From Paenibacillus algicola (GTDB lineage: Bacteria; Bacillota; Bacilli; Paenibacillales; Paenibacillaceae): a DNA stretch of 64,000 bases. The notes beneath the pieces were generated by a model. That model did not search any database, was not told where the DNA came from, and was given only the letters and a program-made list of their open reading frames with translations. Shown in pieces: positions 9,922-14,901 of this stretch. The stretch's first letter is position 1; each line of letters starts with the position of its first letter. The stretch lies in the NCBI RefSeq assembly GCF_005577435.1, contig NZ_CP040396.1, forward strand, positions 4,171,001-4,235,000, read 5' to 3'. The position numbers were made by a program, and so were the translations under genes.

Positions 9922-11280
9922 TTACACCTGCACCGGATCCTTCACGAGCTTCGGCAGTGCCTCCAGGCCCGCCGTGTTCAGGAAGTTCCACGGCTTGTTG
10001 TAATGCGGCTGGAAGAAGAAGTCGACAAAGGCCAGCTGGTCAATCGTCATCTTGTTCTGGATACATACCGAGAGGGTGTTGACCGATTGGGTCAAGTCCG
10101 CTCCGGAGATCAGCTGGGCGCCCAGAATCCGGCGGTCCTTCTTGTCAAAGACGACCTTTAGCGTAACCTCCTCCGACGTCGGCATGAACTCGGGGCGGTA
10201 GTGCTCCTTGATCGTCACCGTGTCGAAATCCAGCTCCTCCTCCTTCGCAGTCAGCTCCGTCAAGCCGGTGGAGGCGATGTGATGGCTGTAAATTTTCAAG
10301 CCCGAGGTGCCCTGGGTGCCCATATACTCCGTCGTCGGCTTGGCCAGGTTGCGCGCTACGAGTGTGCCCATCCGTACCGCATTCGTGGCCAGCGGGATGT
10401 ACATCGCCTTGCCGGTCGGGTTGTACCGGACAGCGCAGCTGTCGCCAGCGGCGAAGACGTCTTTTTTGCTGGTCTGCATGTAGGAATCGACGACGATCGC
10501 CCCATTCTTCAGCATCTCAACCTGACCCTTCAGCAGCTCGGTGTTCGGGCGGAAGCCGATGCACAGAATGACCATATCGGTTTCAATCGTGCCTTTATCG
10601 GTGATGACGCGCTTCACCTGGCCATGCTCGCCCTCAAAGGATTTCACAGTCTGTCCCAGCGCCAGTTCAATGCCCTTCTGGCGGAACGACTCCTCGACTT
10701 TATCGCTGAATTCCGGGTCCAGATATTTATTCAGAATCCGGTCCACGCTATCGACGAGGGTCACCTTCTTGCCGTTCTGCTGAAACGCCTCCACCAGCTC
10801 CACACCGATATAGCCGGCGCCAACCACCGTGATGTGCTTCGCATGCTTCGACTTCTCAATAATGGTATTGGAATGATTGTAGTTCTTGCTCAGCAAAATA
10901 TTGTCCAGATCAATGCCGTCCAGCTTCGGAATGATCGGCCAAGAGCCGGTCGTCACAATCAGCTTGTCGAACGTATCCTCCAGCGTTTCGCCGGTGTCGA
11001 GGTTGCGCGCAGTCAGCTTTTTGCCGTCCGTATCGACAGAGACGACCTCATGCTTCATCTTCGTCGTTACGCCCATTTCCGCCAGCTGGTCCGGGGAGGA
11101 GTAGAACAAGCCGTCCGGATCCTTCACGACCCCGCCGACATACAGCGCAATTCCGCAGCTCAGGAATGAAATATTATCATTGCGTTCATATACGGTAATT
11201 TGAGCCTCCGGGTACAGCTTCGCGGTATTCACAATTGCTGCCGTTCCGGCATGGGTACATCCGATCACTGCTACTTTCAT
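9922..11280 (-). CDS. nox: FAD-dependent NADH oxidase / CoA-disulfide reductase family
   Basis: A 452-residue flavoprotein of the pyridine nucleotide-disulfide reductase class I family. The FAD-binding fold begins at once (VAVIGCTHAGTAA). The single redox cysteine is C42 in SFLSCGIALYVGG, as in water-forming NADH oxidases, NADH peroxidases and CoA-disulfide reductases. The NAD-binding GAGYIGVELVEAF and a C-terminal dimerisation domain follow. It would regenerate NAD+ while reducing oxygen or a disulfide. ATG at 11280 has AAGGAGG nine bases upstream; an in-frame ATG seven codons earlier overlaps this site. The promoter carries three Rex-type palindromes, which fits NADH/NAD+ control. Confidence 0.93.
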   Translation of the reverse strand: MKVAVIGCTHAGTAAIVNTAKLYPEAQITVYERNDNISFLSCGIALYVGGVVKDPDGLFYSSPDQLAEMGVTTKMKHEVVSVDTDGKKLTARNLDTGETLEDTFDKLIVTTGSWPIIPKLDGIDLDNILLSKNYNHSNTIIEKSKHAKHITVVGAGYIGVELVEAFQQNGKKVTLVDSVDRILNKYLDPEFSDKVEESFRQKGIELALGQTVKSFEGEHGQVKRVITDKGTIETDMVILCIGFRPNTELLKGQVEMLKNGAIVVDSYMQTSKKDVFAAGDSCAVRYNPTGKAMYIPLATNAVRMGTLVARNLAKPTTEYMGTQGTSGLKIYSHHIASTGLTELTAKEEELDFDTVTIKEHYRPEFMPTSEEVTLKVVFDKKDRRILGAQLISGADLTQSVNTLSVCIQNKMTIDQLAFVDFFFQPHYNKPWNFLNTAGLEALPKLVKDPVQV

Positions 11281-11368
11281 ATTCTTATTCCTCCTTGGCA
11301 TGATGGTATTTCATTAAGCTCGTCTGTCGTTCATTTTTCGGACTTTGTTTGTCATTTGCCGCTTGTTA

Positions 11369-11629: not shown

Positions 11630-11672
11630 AAAAAAAAGACCACCGGCAGGCGCCCGCCCACCAATGATCTTA
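11630..11672 (-). terminator. Probable terminator after the hybrid kinase gene
   Basis: On the minus strand a GC-rich, self-complementary stretch (GGGCGGGCGCCTGCC) is followed by GGTGGTC and eight T, about 25 bases after the kinase stop. The stem is not clean. Confidence 0.4.
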
Positions 11673-11693: not shown

Positions 11694-13439
11694 TTATTCC
11701 TGGCTCTCCAGCATCGCATTCAGGCTGCCGCAGGCTTCCTCATAGGCAGGCTGCAGTTGTCCGAACGTATGAAGGCCCTGCTCCAGTCGGCCTGCCTTAC
11801 ATAACGCCTCAATCTCTGCCAGCAGCCGGGAGAATTCCTGAACGCCCAGACTGAGACTGCCGGACTTCATGTCATGGGCTGCCGCCGCCGCCTCGGCGCT
11901 TCTGCCTTGCTGCAGCAGCTTGTGCAGCCGCTCCATTTTGTCCGGCATATCCTCCTGGTACATTTGGAACAGCAGTGCCAGCAGCTCCTGACTGCCGTCT
12001 TCCTGAATTTCGATAATTTCGTGAATCGTTTTGTAATCCAGCACCGGCCGATCACTTTGAGCCGTTTTTTCAGGGAGATAAGCTTCCAGGATGGCGGCCA
12101 GAGCATGGGCATGCACCGGCTTGGATACGAAATCATTCATACCGGCATCCATGCACTGCCTGCGCGCCCGCTCATCGGTGCTGCCTGTCATCGCCACCAG
12201 CGGCACAGCCGGCTTGCCCAGCTGCTGCTCCTCAGTGCGGATTTGAGCCGCGGCTTCCGCTCCGCTCAGCTTGGGCATCATATGATCCATCAGGATGAGG
12301 GCATAGGTGTTCTCGCGCGCCTTCTGTACGGCCTCCAGCCCGTTCCGGGCCCAGTCCACCTGCTGCAAGCCCAGCTTACGCAGCTGCATCCCCACCACCT
12401 GACGGTTGATGTCATTATCCTCCACCAGCAGCACCGGGACAGACAGATCCCGGCTGGTCGTCTGCAGCGGCTGCTGCTCTGCATATGCGGCGCGAAGCGC
12501 TTCCACGGAGCGGTTACCGCTTTCCTGGCCGACAGCCGGCTCCAGCGGAATTTCAAACCAGAATAAGGTGCCCCGGCCTTCTTCACTGGATACTCCGATT
12601 CTCCCCCGCATCAGCTCGACAAGCGACTTGCAGATGGACAATCCTAACCCTGTGCCTCCATACTCTGGGGAGCCGCCTTCATCGGTCTGCATATAGGGCG
12701 TAAACAGATTCTTCTGATCCTCTGCTGAGATCCCCATGCCGGTGTCCTCGACCTCGAAGCGCACCAGGCTCTGGTTCTCGCCCTGGCCTTCAAGCTCTGC
12801 CGGCTTCACACGGATCATGATCTGCCCGTCCTGTGTGAACTTGTTGGCATTGCCGAGCAGATTCAGCATCACCTGATTGATCCTTCCTGCATCGCCAATC
12901 CACTGCCGCTCCAGCCGTTCGTCCAGAAGCATAGACAGCCGGTTGCCGTTGTTCTCCAGCTTGTCCTGCAGCAGCCTGGAACTATGATCCAAAATAACAT
13001 GCAGATCGAAGGCCTCCCGCCGCAGCTCCATTTTGCCCGCATCAATCTTGGATAAGTCCAGCAAATCGTTGATCATATGAATGAGCAGCGCTGCGGAATC
13101 GCGGATCAAGCCCACCGATTGCCGGTTAACATCCGTCAAGCCCGGCTGCTCCAGCATCTCCGCCATGCCCATGATGGCATTCATCGGTGTACGGATCTCA
13201 TGACTGATCACAGCCAGCAGCCGACCTTTCGCTTCATTAGCCTGCTCTGCCTCCAGGCGGGTCCGCTTGAGCTCGGCATTGTTCTTTGCCAGCCGGCGCT
13301 GCAGCGTGACCAGCTCATTATTCATAGCGGTAAATTCACCGAGCACCTGCTCTTCCCGTTCCCTCGCCCGGATGATCTGATCGGACATCTCTCTGATCGT
13401 CTGCCGCAGCCGTTCCGCCTCTGTATTAGGGTCATGCAT
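11694..13439 (-). CDS. Soluble hybrid histidine kinase: HisKA-HATPase-REC-HPt
   Basis: A 581-residue cytoplasmic hybrid kinase with no transmembrane segment and no PAS, GAF or other sensor domain. Residues 1-70 form a predicted coiled coil. The phosphoacceptor is H80 in VISHEIRTPMN. The ATPase has the N box (LLGNANKF), the G1 box (EDTGMGIS) and the G2 box (GGTGLGLS). A receiver follows with D385 in LILMDHMMP and K440. A C-terminal HPt domain has H522 in AHDMKSGSLSLG. Such a full phosphorelay needs an external input and a final response regulator, and neither is in this protein. The cobalamin-binding gene ends only 38 bases upstream on the same strand and is the natural input candidate (inference). 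GGGAGG lies nine bases before the ATG. Confidence 0.93.
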   Translation of the reverse strand: MHDPNTEAERLRQTIREMSDQIIRAREREEQVLGEFTAMNNELVTLQRRLAKNNAELKRTRLEAEQANEAKGRLLAVISHEIRTPMNAIMGMAEMLEQPGLTDVNRQSVGLIRDSAALLIHMINDLLDLSKIDAGKMELRREAFDLHVILDHSSRLLQDKLENNGNRLSMLLDERLERQWIGDAGRINQVMLNLLGNANKFTQDGQIMIRVKPAELEGQGENQSLVRFEVEDTGMGISAEDQKNLFTPYMQTDEGGSPEYGGTGLGLSICKSLVELMRGRIGVSSEEGRGTLFWFEIPLEPAVGQESGNRSVEALRAAYAEQQPLQTTSRDLSVPVLLVEDNDINRQVVGMQLRKLGLQQVDWARNGLEAVQKARENTYALILMDHMMPKLSGAEAAAQIRTEEQQLGKPAVPLVAMTGSTDERARRQCMDAGMNDFVSKPVHAHALAAILEAYLPEKTAQSDRPVLDYKTIHEIIEIQEDGSQELLALLFQMYQEDMPDKMERLHKLLQQGRSAEAAAAAHDMKSGSLSLGVQEFSRLLAEIEALCKAGRLEQGLHTFGQLQPAYEEACGSLNAMLESQE

Positions 13440-13477
13440 TTGCCTGTCCCTCCCTTACTTGTTGCTTCCAAACACCG

Positions 13478-14548
13478 TCACGTCGCCGGCTTCGTCAGGA
13501 CCAGCTGCTCCGCGGCAGCCACCGTAGCTTCAGCATCCGGCGCACAGCCATCCGCTCCGACCTCCCGCCACAGGTTAGGGTCCAGGTTGAAGGGCAGTCC
13601 TCCAACCATAATCTTCACATGCTTGTACCGCTCATCGGCCCGAATCTTGCGGATGAGGTCCCGCACCAGATGGATATGATAGGTCATCGTAGCCGATATC
13701 GCGACCACATCCGCGTCATGCTTCTCAATGGCTTGCAGCAGGCTGAAATCCGGAACGTCTGCTCCGAGATAATACGTGTCCCAGCCGTGCAGCTCGAACG
13801 TGTCGGCCACCATACGCAGCCCGATCTCGTGAGTCTCCTTGCCGACACAGGCCGCTACCAGGGTCAGGCCCTTACTGCCCACCGTCATCCAGTGCGGATA
13901 CAGACTGGAAATAATCGACTGGGTAACCGCTGTGCAGTAGTGCTCCTGAGCGACACTCACACGCCCCAGCTGCCAGAGCCTCCCGATCTCATACTGTGCC
14001 GCCTGAAAAATATGCTTGTACAGCGCAGAAATGCCGATTTCCCGCTCCAGCAGCCCGTGAATCAGGCTGGAGGCTTCCCGGCGCTTTCCTTGCAGCAGCA
14101 GCTCCAGATAATCTGCCGCCTCCTTTGCCAAAGGGTTGTCCTCCGTAATATAGGAATCCAGCGTCACCGTCTCCACAGACTGCATCATCCCCATGTCCAA
14201 ATAATCCAGGACGGTTCCTTTGTCTTGATGATCAAACCGCTCATCCAGCGCTTTCCTCATCGCTTCCAGATTCACCCTTAAATCCTCGCCTGTCACCTTG
14301 TAGCCTTCGAGCAGTACCTTTAACCACGATACATAATGTAAAAATAAAGCCGGACTCTTGACCAGCACACTCTCCGCTAAATAATTCAGCGTATACAGCG
14401 AGTCACGCCGGGTCTTTTCTTTTCCGGAAGGGCCGAAGCGGTCCTGCAGATCCGGCTGCCTGTTGTATTGCTGCTCCGTGATCCAGTCCGCAAGCTTCTC
14501 GGCCTCGTTCAGCAATGCATCTCCGGCGGTCTTTTCTGTCATTCCCAT
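13478..14548 (-). CDS. Stand-alone cobalamin-binding protein with photoreceptor-type signature
   Basis: A 356-residue protein with an N-terminal helical region (1-130) of no recognised family, a four-helix cobalamin cap (about 140-215) and a Rossmann-type B12-binding domain (about 225-350). The lower-axial-ligand motif E-x-H-x-x-G is ETHEIG with H240. The cap has W192-x9-E202-H203, which is the signature of adenosylcobalamin photoreceptors of the CarH/LitR type. Unlike CarH it has no MerR DNA-binding domain. It sits 38 bases before a sensorless hybrid kinase and 47 bases after an ABM-fold gene. It may sense light or B12 and control the kinase (inference). Corrinoid methyltransferase partner proteins share the fold but usually lack the W-x9-EH motif. 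Confidence 0.9.
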   Translation of the reverse strand: MGMTEKTAGDALLNEAEKLADWITEQQYNRQPDLQDRFGPSGKEKTRRDSLYTLNYLAESVLVKSPALFLHYVSWLKVLLEGYKVTGEDLRVNLEAMRKALDERFDHQDKGTVLDYLDMGMMQSVETVTLDSYITEDNPLAKEAADYLELLLQGKRREASSLIHGLLEREIGISALYKHIFQAAQYEIGRLWQLGRVSVAQEHYCTAVTQSIISSLYPHWMTVGSKGLTLVAACVGKETHEIGLRMVADTFELHGWDTYYLGADVPDFSLLQAIEKHDADVVAISATMTYHIHLVRDLIRKIRADERYKHVKIMVGGLPFNLDPNLWREVGADGCAPDAEATVAAAEQLVLTKPAT

Positions 14549-14589
14549 GCTTATCCCTTCCTCTCTATAGATGTATGCTGCAATGAGAA

Positions 14590-14609
14590 TACGGGCTATT
14601 CCGCCCGTA
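14590..14609. other. Short hairpin at the ABM-B12 gene junction
   Basis: TACGGGC and GCCCGTA flank a six-base loop at the end of the ABM gene. No T run follows, so it is more likely a processing or attenuating hairpin than a full terminator. Confidence 0.35.
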
Positions 14610-14901
14610 CGTGGTATCTTCGAACCATCGGCTTGATGCCGGCCAGCTCCTGATCCGGATATTTTTTCTCCAGCTCATGGATCCGCTTGAAATCCTCACT
14701 CGTTACCCAAGCCAGATAATGCTCCTTCTTCTCCCACGTCATGTGAACCGTGAGCTCTCCCGGCTTATGCTCGTTCTGAAGCAGCTGAAATGAAAGAAAG
14801 CCAGGCTGCTTATCGACGGACCGGCTTCGGTTGACATATAATTGGACCAAGTCCTCTGCCTTGTGCACAGGCACCTCTACGACGGATTGAACGATATACA
14901 C
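14596..14901 (-). CDS. Antibiotic biosynthesis monooxygenase (ABM) domain protein
   Basis: A 101-residue single ABM domain (dimeric alpha-beta barrel) as in IsdG/HmoA-type heme-degrading enzymes and quinol monooxygenases. Visible family features are QPGFLSFQLLQNE, MTWEKKEHYLAWV and FKRIHE. Heme degradation is plausible but the catalytic residues cannot be assigned with certainty. The start is a GTG at 14901 with GGGAGG seven bases upstream. It is the first gene of a probable three-gene unit with the B12-binding protein and the hybrid kinase. A TATAAT sequence (14966-14971, minus strand) precedes it. Confidence 0.85.
   Translation of the reverse strand: MYIVQSVVEVPVHKAEDLVQLYVNRSRSVDKQPGFLSFQLLQNEHKPGELTVHMTWEKKEHYLAWVTSEDFKRIHELEKKYPDQELAGIKPMVRRYHVRAE

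Follow-up and report, generated by a model that had tools for sequence, protein, structure and literature searches.

What does a cobalamin-binding protein report when its gene stands directly ahead of a soluble histidine kinase that has no sensor domain of its own? The question is raised by three minus-strand genes in a 64,000-nucleotide stretch of the Paenibacillus algicola genome (contig NZ_CP040396.1, positions 4,171,001 to 4,235,000; hereafter the window). They encode an ABM-fold (antibiotic biosynthesis monooxygenase) protein, a 356-residue B12 protein and the kinase. All three open reading frames were verified, and the gaps between them are 47 and 38 nucleotides. Judged by its sequence, the B12 protein is photocobilin-type, combining a bilin-binding globin (photoglobin), placed first, with a light-type B12 domain. 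The three genes likely form one unit, in which a bilin/B12 photoreceptor would act in trans on a HisKA-REC-HPt phosphorelay and the ABM protein would probably be bilin-handling.

The photocobilin-type protein

The features of the locus are given below by window position. Equivalent residues are those of SasPcob, the stand-alone photocobilin of Saccharothrix syringae (PDB 8J2W/8J2X).

14596..14901, minus strand: ABM-fold protein, IsdG/HmoB-like haem-degrading type, 101 residues (PF03992, 8.2e-15)
13478..14548, minus strand: photocobilin-type protein, 356 residues, N-terminal photoglobin and C-terminal B12-binding domain of the adenosylcobalamin type
14174..14527, minus strand: photoglobin domain, residues 8-125, five helices, TRRD motif (T46-D49)
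14402..14404, minus strand: Asp49, equivalent to SasPcob Asp270
14324..14326, minus strand: Trp75, equivalent to SasPcob Trp296
13493..14134, minus strand: four-helix bundle and Rossmann cobalamin-binding domain, residues 139-352
13973..13975, minus strand: Trp192, the W of W-x9-EH
13940..13945, minus strand: Glu202-His203, the EH of W-x9-EH
13829..13831, minus strand: His240, expected lower cobalt ligand, equivalent to SasPcob His108
11694..13439, minus strand: soluble hybrid kinase with coiled coil (1-69), HisKA (70-135), HATPase (182-300), REC (336-451) and HPt (490-563)
13233..13439, minus strand: N-terminal linker and presumed input of the kinase, coiled coil by appearance (EFTAMNNELVTLQRRLAKNNAEL)
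13200..13202, minus strand: kinase His80, HisKA phosphoacceptor
12285..12287, minus strand: kinase Asp385, REC phosphoacceptor
11874..11876, minus strand: kinase His522, HPt phosphoacceptor
11636..11671, minus strand: terminator-like hairpin and T run 3' of the kinase (consensus scan)

A preliminary description of this DNA had reported the B12 protein with its H240 ligand motif and W192-x9-E202-H203, followed by a HisKA-HATPase-REC-HPt kinase without a sensor domain. The first was confirmed in the sequence and the second by Pfam, which matched ABM in the first gene, B12-binding_2 and B12-binding in the second, and HisKA, HATPase_c, Response_reg and Hpt in the third. That description missed the photoglobin: the first ~125 residues of the B12 protein form a phycobiliprotein-like, five-helix bilin-binding globin.

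Alignments place Asp49 and Trp75 at the positions of SasPcob Asp270, which contacts bilin rings A-C, and Trp296, which packs on ring D and hydrogen-bonds the corrin (PMC10979010). The numbering of that paper is reached from the PDB chain index by a constant offset of +6, which also places His108, Trp61, Glu71 and His72 correctly. Residue conservation was counted over 37 aligned sequences, the window's own included. The tryptophan is present in 37/37 and the aspartate in 31/37. In phycobiliproteins the bilin-binding Cys lies in a CXRD motif (PMC10151467). The corresponding residue 46 is Thr here and Cys in 7/37 sequences, and bilin binding is therefore predicted to be non-covalent, as in SasPcob.

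The B12 domain is nearest to photocobilins both by sequence (3e-28) and by structural Z (26). Trp192, Glu202, His203, His240 and Gly262 are each invariant (37/37), and Pro266 is found in 36/37. The photocobilin pattern of W-x9-EH and E/DxH is present as W192, E202-H203 and E238-T-H240. The light-type B12 signature consists of GxxW, EH, GxxxP and GxxH (PMC11796333), and the first three occur as G189xxW192, E202H203 and G262xxxP266. Residue 193, at the position of TtCarH His132, is Gln here and His in 8/37 sequences; SasPcob likewise has Gln (PMC11796333). No bis-His light state is therefore expected. A cobalamin adenosyltransferase is encoded in the same genome. The light reading is favoured because the B12 domain is closest to photocobilins, the N-terminal domain is a photoglobin, and the bilin Asp and Trp are conserved together with the W, EH and H of the B12 domain.

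SasPcob is the closest point of comparison. It has both domains, equivalents of the bilin residues and of the B12 residues (Trp61, Glu71-His72 and His108 for Trp192, Glu202-His203 and His240), and no Cys at the bilin-attachment position. It binds biliverdin and adenosylcobalamin, and light taken up by either chromophore triggers Co-C cleavage (PMC10979010). Unlike SasPcob, the window protein has its bilin domain first and is tied to a kinase gene and an ABM gene. AbDPcob (PDB 8J2Y) is also a photocobilin driving a signalling enzyme, but it is fused to GGDEF and has His for the bilin Asp, whereas in the window the proteins are separate and the enzyme is a phosphorelay kinase. The globin and B12 domain combination is shared with the photoglobin family, a predicted light sensor in signal transduction (via PMC10151467 and PMC10979010).

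With CarH/LitR (TtCarH, PDB 5C8A-5C8F) the protein shares the B12-domain fold, W-x9-EH and the His ligand. It differs in having Gln for His132, an additional bilin domain, and no MerR DNA-binding domain (no Pfam match to that domain; CarH NCBIfam model, 46.8 of 400 bits). A CarH-like sensor without MerR had been proposed in the preliminary description. The absence of MerR stands, while the CarH-like identity gives way to a photocobilin-type, two-chromophore one.

It is hardly credible that the protein is instead a corrinoid carrier of a methyltransferase system (MtgC/MtbC type). Its top NCBIfam match is MtgC (7.7e-17) and the B12 fold is common to both, but the MtgC and MtbC scores are far under the model cut-offs (61.5 of 370 and 55.3 of 350 bits), no match to PF06253, the family of MTTB methyltransferases, exists in the genome, and the protein combines W-x9-EH with an N-terminal photoglobin. 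Synteny with corrinoid methyltransferases, named earlier as a finding that would speak against a sensor, was partly checked: the genome has no PF06253 match and none of the scanned neighbours is such an enzyme, the flanks of the 79 surveyed loci (see below) not having been scanned systematically.

Pairing with a phosphorelay kinase

Photocobilin homologues (E <= 1e-20) occur in 21 of 100 Paenibacillus genomes, in 22 copies. The kinase lies directly downstream on the same strand in 20 of these, and the two exceptions are truncated genes. A wider survey, taking one genome per species and the best 80 of 89 candidates, gave 79 loci, the distant part of which is a sample. The loci are not independent, since near-identical species and one duplicated region (L064/L101) are included. 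Pairing was scored when a kinase homologue (phmmer) started within 450 nucleotides downstream on the same strand. It is found in 67/79 loci: in 56/57 of the Paenibacillaceae type (Paenibacillus, Saccharibacillus and one record titled Neobacillus) and in 11/22 others, including metagenome-assembled genomes (MAGs) of Acidobacteriota, Cloacimonadota, Thiogranum and Spirochaetales. Seven of these 11 kinases were verified with Pfam (L074, L080, L081, L087, L094, L095, L104; L081 by its HATPase domain only); for the remaining four the evidence is the phmmer match. The B12 match of L104 spans the B12 domain alone.

The 12 unpaired loci differ in arrangement. L083 is a natural photocobilin-PAS-HATPase fusion, and L099 is a B12 domain-HisKA-HATPase fusion without photoglobin. 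A GGDEF enzyme adjoins the photocobilin in L076, L092 and L102, so that the same module adjoins another output. Sigma-factor and anti-sigma-like genes lie directly upstream of the photocobilin in L096, L097, L098 and L103 (Pfam was run on L097 only). These last are three Phycisphaerae/Phycisphaerales MAGs and one titled Alphaproteobacteria, and His replaces the bilin Asp in them. L077 is a truncated copy, and L084 and L085 (contig end) have no recognised partner.

From the 57 loci, 38 Paenibacillaceae kinases were analysed, that of the window included. HisKA, HATPase and REC are present in all 38 and HPt in 37; His80 and Asp385 are conserved in 38/38 and His522 in 37/38. The preliminary description had proposed a two-protein sensory phosphorelay and had suggested looking for the pair side by side across Paenibacillaceae, where it is indeed kept; the pairing, reaching into distant bacteria, and the conserved phosphotransfer residues support that proposal. 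There is also precedent for action in trans, as a separate photocobilin protein alters the activity of a separate cyclase domain (Zhang et al., PMC10979010).

In the proposed mechanism, bilin would sit in the N-terminal globin and adenosylcobalamin in the C-terminal domain. Light absorbed by either chromophore would cleave the cobalt-carbon bond, a reaction that has been measured in SasPcob, and loss of the adenosyl group would change the shape or assembly of the photoreceptor. Acting in trans, the photoreceptor would then influence the coiled coil at the N-terminus of the kinase and alter the autophosphorylation of that enzyme. The phosphate would pass from His80 to Asp385 and His522, and from there to a separate response regulator. 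The bilin would be made or delivered by the ABM protein.

A different arrangement, with some other target for the photocobilin and a different signal for the kinase, appears improbable. It draws on the kinase lacking a domain that is found in many partner enzymes elsewhere, and on the interaction of the two proteins being one that we infer. Against it stand the near-constant pairing in Paenibacillaceae-type loci, the natural fusions in L083 and L099, and the correlated divergence of photocobilin and kinase (r = 0.81 over 17 gene pairs, without a control gene, which may reflect shared ancestry alone).

The domain in question comprises ~115 residues and begins the partner enzymes (kinase or diguanylate cyclase) of 16 loci, with a profile-profile probability of 99.7 and an E-value of 1.4e-25. 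Eight of the loci are distant (L074, L076, L080, L081, L092, L095, L102, L104) and eight are Paenibacillaceae (L057, L063, L067, L070, L071, L072, L089, L091). An alignment of 15 of them (A5, in which L071:9099-9476 is one row) had no match to PDB sequences at E <= 1, and a Pfam search with the 15 members (E <= 0.1) gave four weak single-member matches, none convincing (best 0.0021). The window's own genome returned nothing at E <= 0.01, in a search without a positive control. In the window, the kinase starts within the linker found after this domain elsewhere, and retains a stretch resembling the conserved EFSxMNNELVTLQRxLAKxNxEL. The partner kinases of L100 and L105 likewise lack the domain.

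A tree of 72 of the 79 loci, effectively unrooted, left out copies that are fragmentary, broken, duplicated or B12-only (L061, L077, L078, L089, L099, L101 and L104). It separates L063, the L058 and L071 groups and all distant loci from the other Paenibacillaceae with support of 96/99; several inner nodes are weak. The ~115-residue domain falls on the side of the distant loci and is absent again in the L058 group. Because of this position in an unrooted tree, loss in the lineage of the window is the likelier course; the domain was probably lost there, which is probably why the kinase looks sensorless. In other lineages it is the obvious candidate docking domain, and on the proposed model the linker would have to take in the signal in the window's kinase.

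The ABM protein

The ABM protein contains the ABM domain of IsdG-type monooxygenases (PF03992). It is most closely related to haem-degrading monooxygenases: the nearest NCBIfam model is HmuQ (44.2 of 130 bits), and the PDB matches are TT1380, MhuD and HmoB. The catalytic triad of IsdG is Asn7, Trp67 and His77, Asn7 being critical (PMC6018153). The window protein has Ser6, Trp65 and His75 at these positions. It thus resembles IsdG, HmoB and MhuD in family and in the Trp and His, and differs from them in having Ser for the catalytic Asn. The Ser, which aligns opposite the Asn of IsdI and HmoB, is present in 16/16 photoglobin-linked ABM proteins aligned (7 + 5 + 3 split + that of the window).

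At E <= 1e-10 this subfamily was found in 6/100 Paenibacillus genomes, in all six directly upstream of a photoglobin gene. Two locus types are represented, fused photocobilins (G000, the window's own genome, G033 and G019) and stand-alone photoglobins (G020, G046 and G067). Stand-alone photoglobins occur in 5/100 genomes and the ABM gene is present in all five (Fisher p = 8e-8, uncorrected for kinship). In the wider survey, the ABM gene is directly upstream of the photocobilin in 12/79 loci. Seven contain the close form (L027, L028, L046, L047, L057, L071, L089) and five a distant one (L074, L083, L087, L093, L094; profile E 6e-8 to 7e-3), for which PF03992 was above cut-off in the four loci tested (L074, L083, L087, L094). 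L047, whose record bears the title Neobacillus mesonae, has a copy resembling those of Paenibacillus, ABM gene included; either the genome is mislabelled or the copy was transferred.

The preliminary description had placed the ABM protein as an oxygenase output or partner. Its place as an upstream component is upheld, and the role of output was rejected: the same subfamily also precedes stand-alone photoglobins whose next gene encodes a CheB-domain protein and not this kinase (seen in L115). For this reason a bilin-linked role is preferred, and the protein probably makes or delivers bilin. Alternatively, it may be an iron-acquisition or redox haem enzyme that has no role in light sensing and was placed there by chance or co-regulation. 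The low share of surveyed loci that have it and the replaced Asn make this a considerable possibility, though the less probable one. Its consistent position upstream of photoglobins within the genus, in both locus types, argues the other way, as does the recurrence of the distant form upstream of photocobilins in MAGs of Acidobacteriota, Verrucomicrobiales and Thiogranum.

More tentative is a self-contained light phosphorelay of three genes, in which the Ser-bearing ABM protein would make a bilin, possibly not biliverdin, or load it onto the photocobilin, which would switch the hybrid kinase through its bare coiled coil. If true, the unit would be a two-component system that responds to green and red light, and haem would reach a photoreceptor chromophore by a new route.

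Pairs of haem oxygenase and bacteriophytochrome genes are known. They resemble the ABM-photocobilin arrangement in setting a pigment-making gene beside a photoreceptor gene (one such pair is in L064), and differ in that the enzyme and photoreceptor families are unrelated to those of the window.

Light, B12 status and related loci

Several observations weigh against a light-driven unit of three genes. Adjacency may mean co-regulation only. When matches to the whole predicted model are ranked by Foldseek E-value, a MerR-type regulator (8jbs, its B12 domain) comes first and SasPcob fifth. In place of GxxH the protein has K237xxH240; G is found at position 237 in 12/37 sequences, so the position is not fixed. 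The residue at Asp49 is not Asp in 6/37. The kinase lacks the N-terminal domain that many partner enzymes have elsewhere, and no response-regulator gene was seen adjoining it. Against simple chromophore supply, the ABM gene is absent from 67/79 loci. The genome has no match to haem oxygenase PF01126, and the ABM protein, which has no catalytic Asn, is no more than a candidate bilin source. Among the 21 Paenibacillus genomes with photocobilin, 18 have no ABM, 18 have no PF01126 and 15 have neither. PF01126 was rejected as a general bilin source, being found in 7/100 genomes of the genus and in 3/21 of those with photocobilin (Fisher p = 0.16). An Asn-bearing ABM paralogue in the same genome (C1:4238637) could also make bilin.

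The 15 genomes with neither enzyme would suit a sensor of B12 status, which reports occupancy by adenosylcobalamin and not light, its bilin pocket being vestigial. AbDPcob fits such a sensor in two respects: its activity is lowered by adenosylcobalamin binding alone, and it binds biliverdin poorly (PMC10979010). Still, a sensor of this kind is unlikely, as the bilin Trp and Asp are retained (the former throughout), light-related neighbours occur in L064 and L104, and of the light signature only the G of GxxH is missing.

Earlier publications describe photocobilins and connect them with signalling, the function of stand-alone ones being termed 'less clear' (PMC10979010). Among the papers searched, none joins cobalamin-binding domain, photoreceptor, histidine kinase and Paenibacillus, and none joins antibiotic biosynthesis monooxygenase, biliverdin and photoreceptor. 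For the photoglobin family, which has the globin and B12 domain seen here, Schneider et al. reportedly predicted the connection to signalling in 2022. Since a soluble kinase stays beside the photocobilin gene in Paenibacillaceae and several distant groups, a two-chromophore photoreceptor now has partners that can be tested directly in bacteria amenable to culture; a soluble two-component system of use in optogenetics may also follow. The ABM subfamily linked to photoglobins prompts a further question: in bacteria without canonical haem oxygenase, does a non-canonical haem enzyme supply the photoreceptor's pigment? The connection with ABM and the still unnamed domain of the partner enzymes are the most interesting and the least settled points.

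In the window, an Rfam scan gave no match at the gathering threshold. Terminator-like sites in the region number 6, with 3.3 expected from shuffles, and the one after the kinase has the longest stem. It stands between the kinase and a gene at 9922-11301, which resembles H2O-forming NADH oxidase or CoA-disulfide reductase, with scores under curated cut-offs.

The genome also holds a second, split photoglobin system (G000:C1:559414-562061; L002, L120). There, a 160-residue photoglobin (profile E 8e-18), in which the motif reads CRED, precedes a 1213-residue CheB-CheR-PAS-histidine kinase, accompanied by a divergent 225-residue light-type B12 protein (E 2.5e-22) and a 210-residue protein. A putative MerR-type B12 regulator (LitR/CarH-like) lies 12 kb before the window (C1:4158729; L003, L121) and adjoins an isopentenyl-diphosphate-isomerase-like gene, both named by reading.

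Three other loci deserve mention. In Paenibacillus sp. DMB5 (L064:3496-9077) a haem oxygenase, a phytochrome-GGDEF, an MsrA-like gene (by reading) and the photocobilin-kinase pair are adjacent, the first two lying at least 1.3 kb upstream of the photocobilin. In a Verrucomicrobiales MAG (L083:3458-7303) a second protein of 1281 residues with a photocobilin-like start is divergent from the ABM gene and the photocobilin-kinase fusion. In a Spirochaetales MAG (L104:852-8002) the B12 gene is followed in turn by genes for the kinase, a REC protein, KaiB, KaiC and another large protein, so that a Kai-type system may receive light input there.

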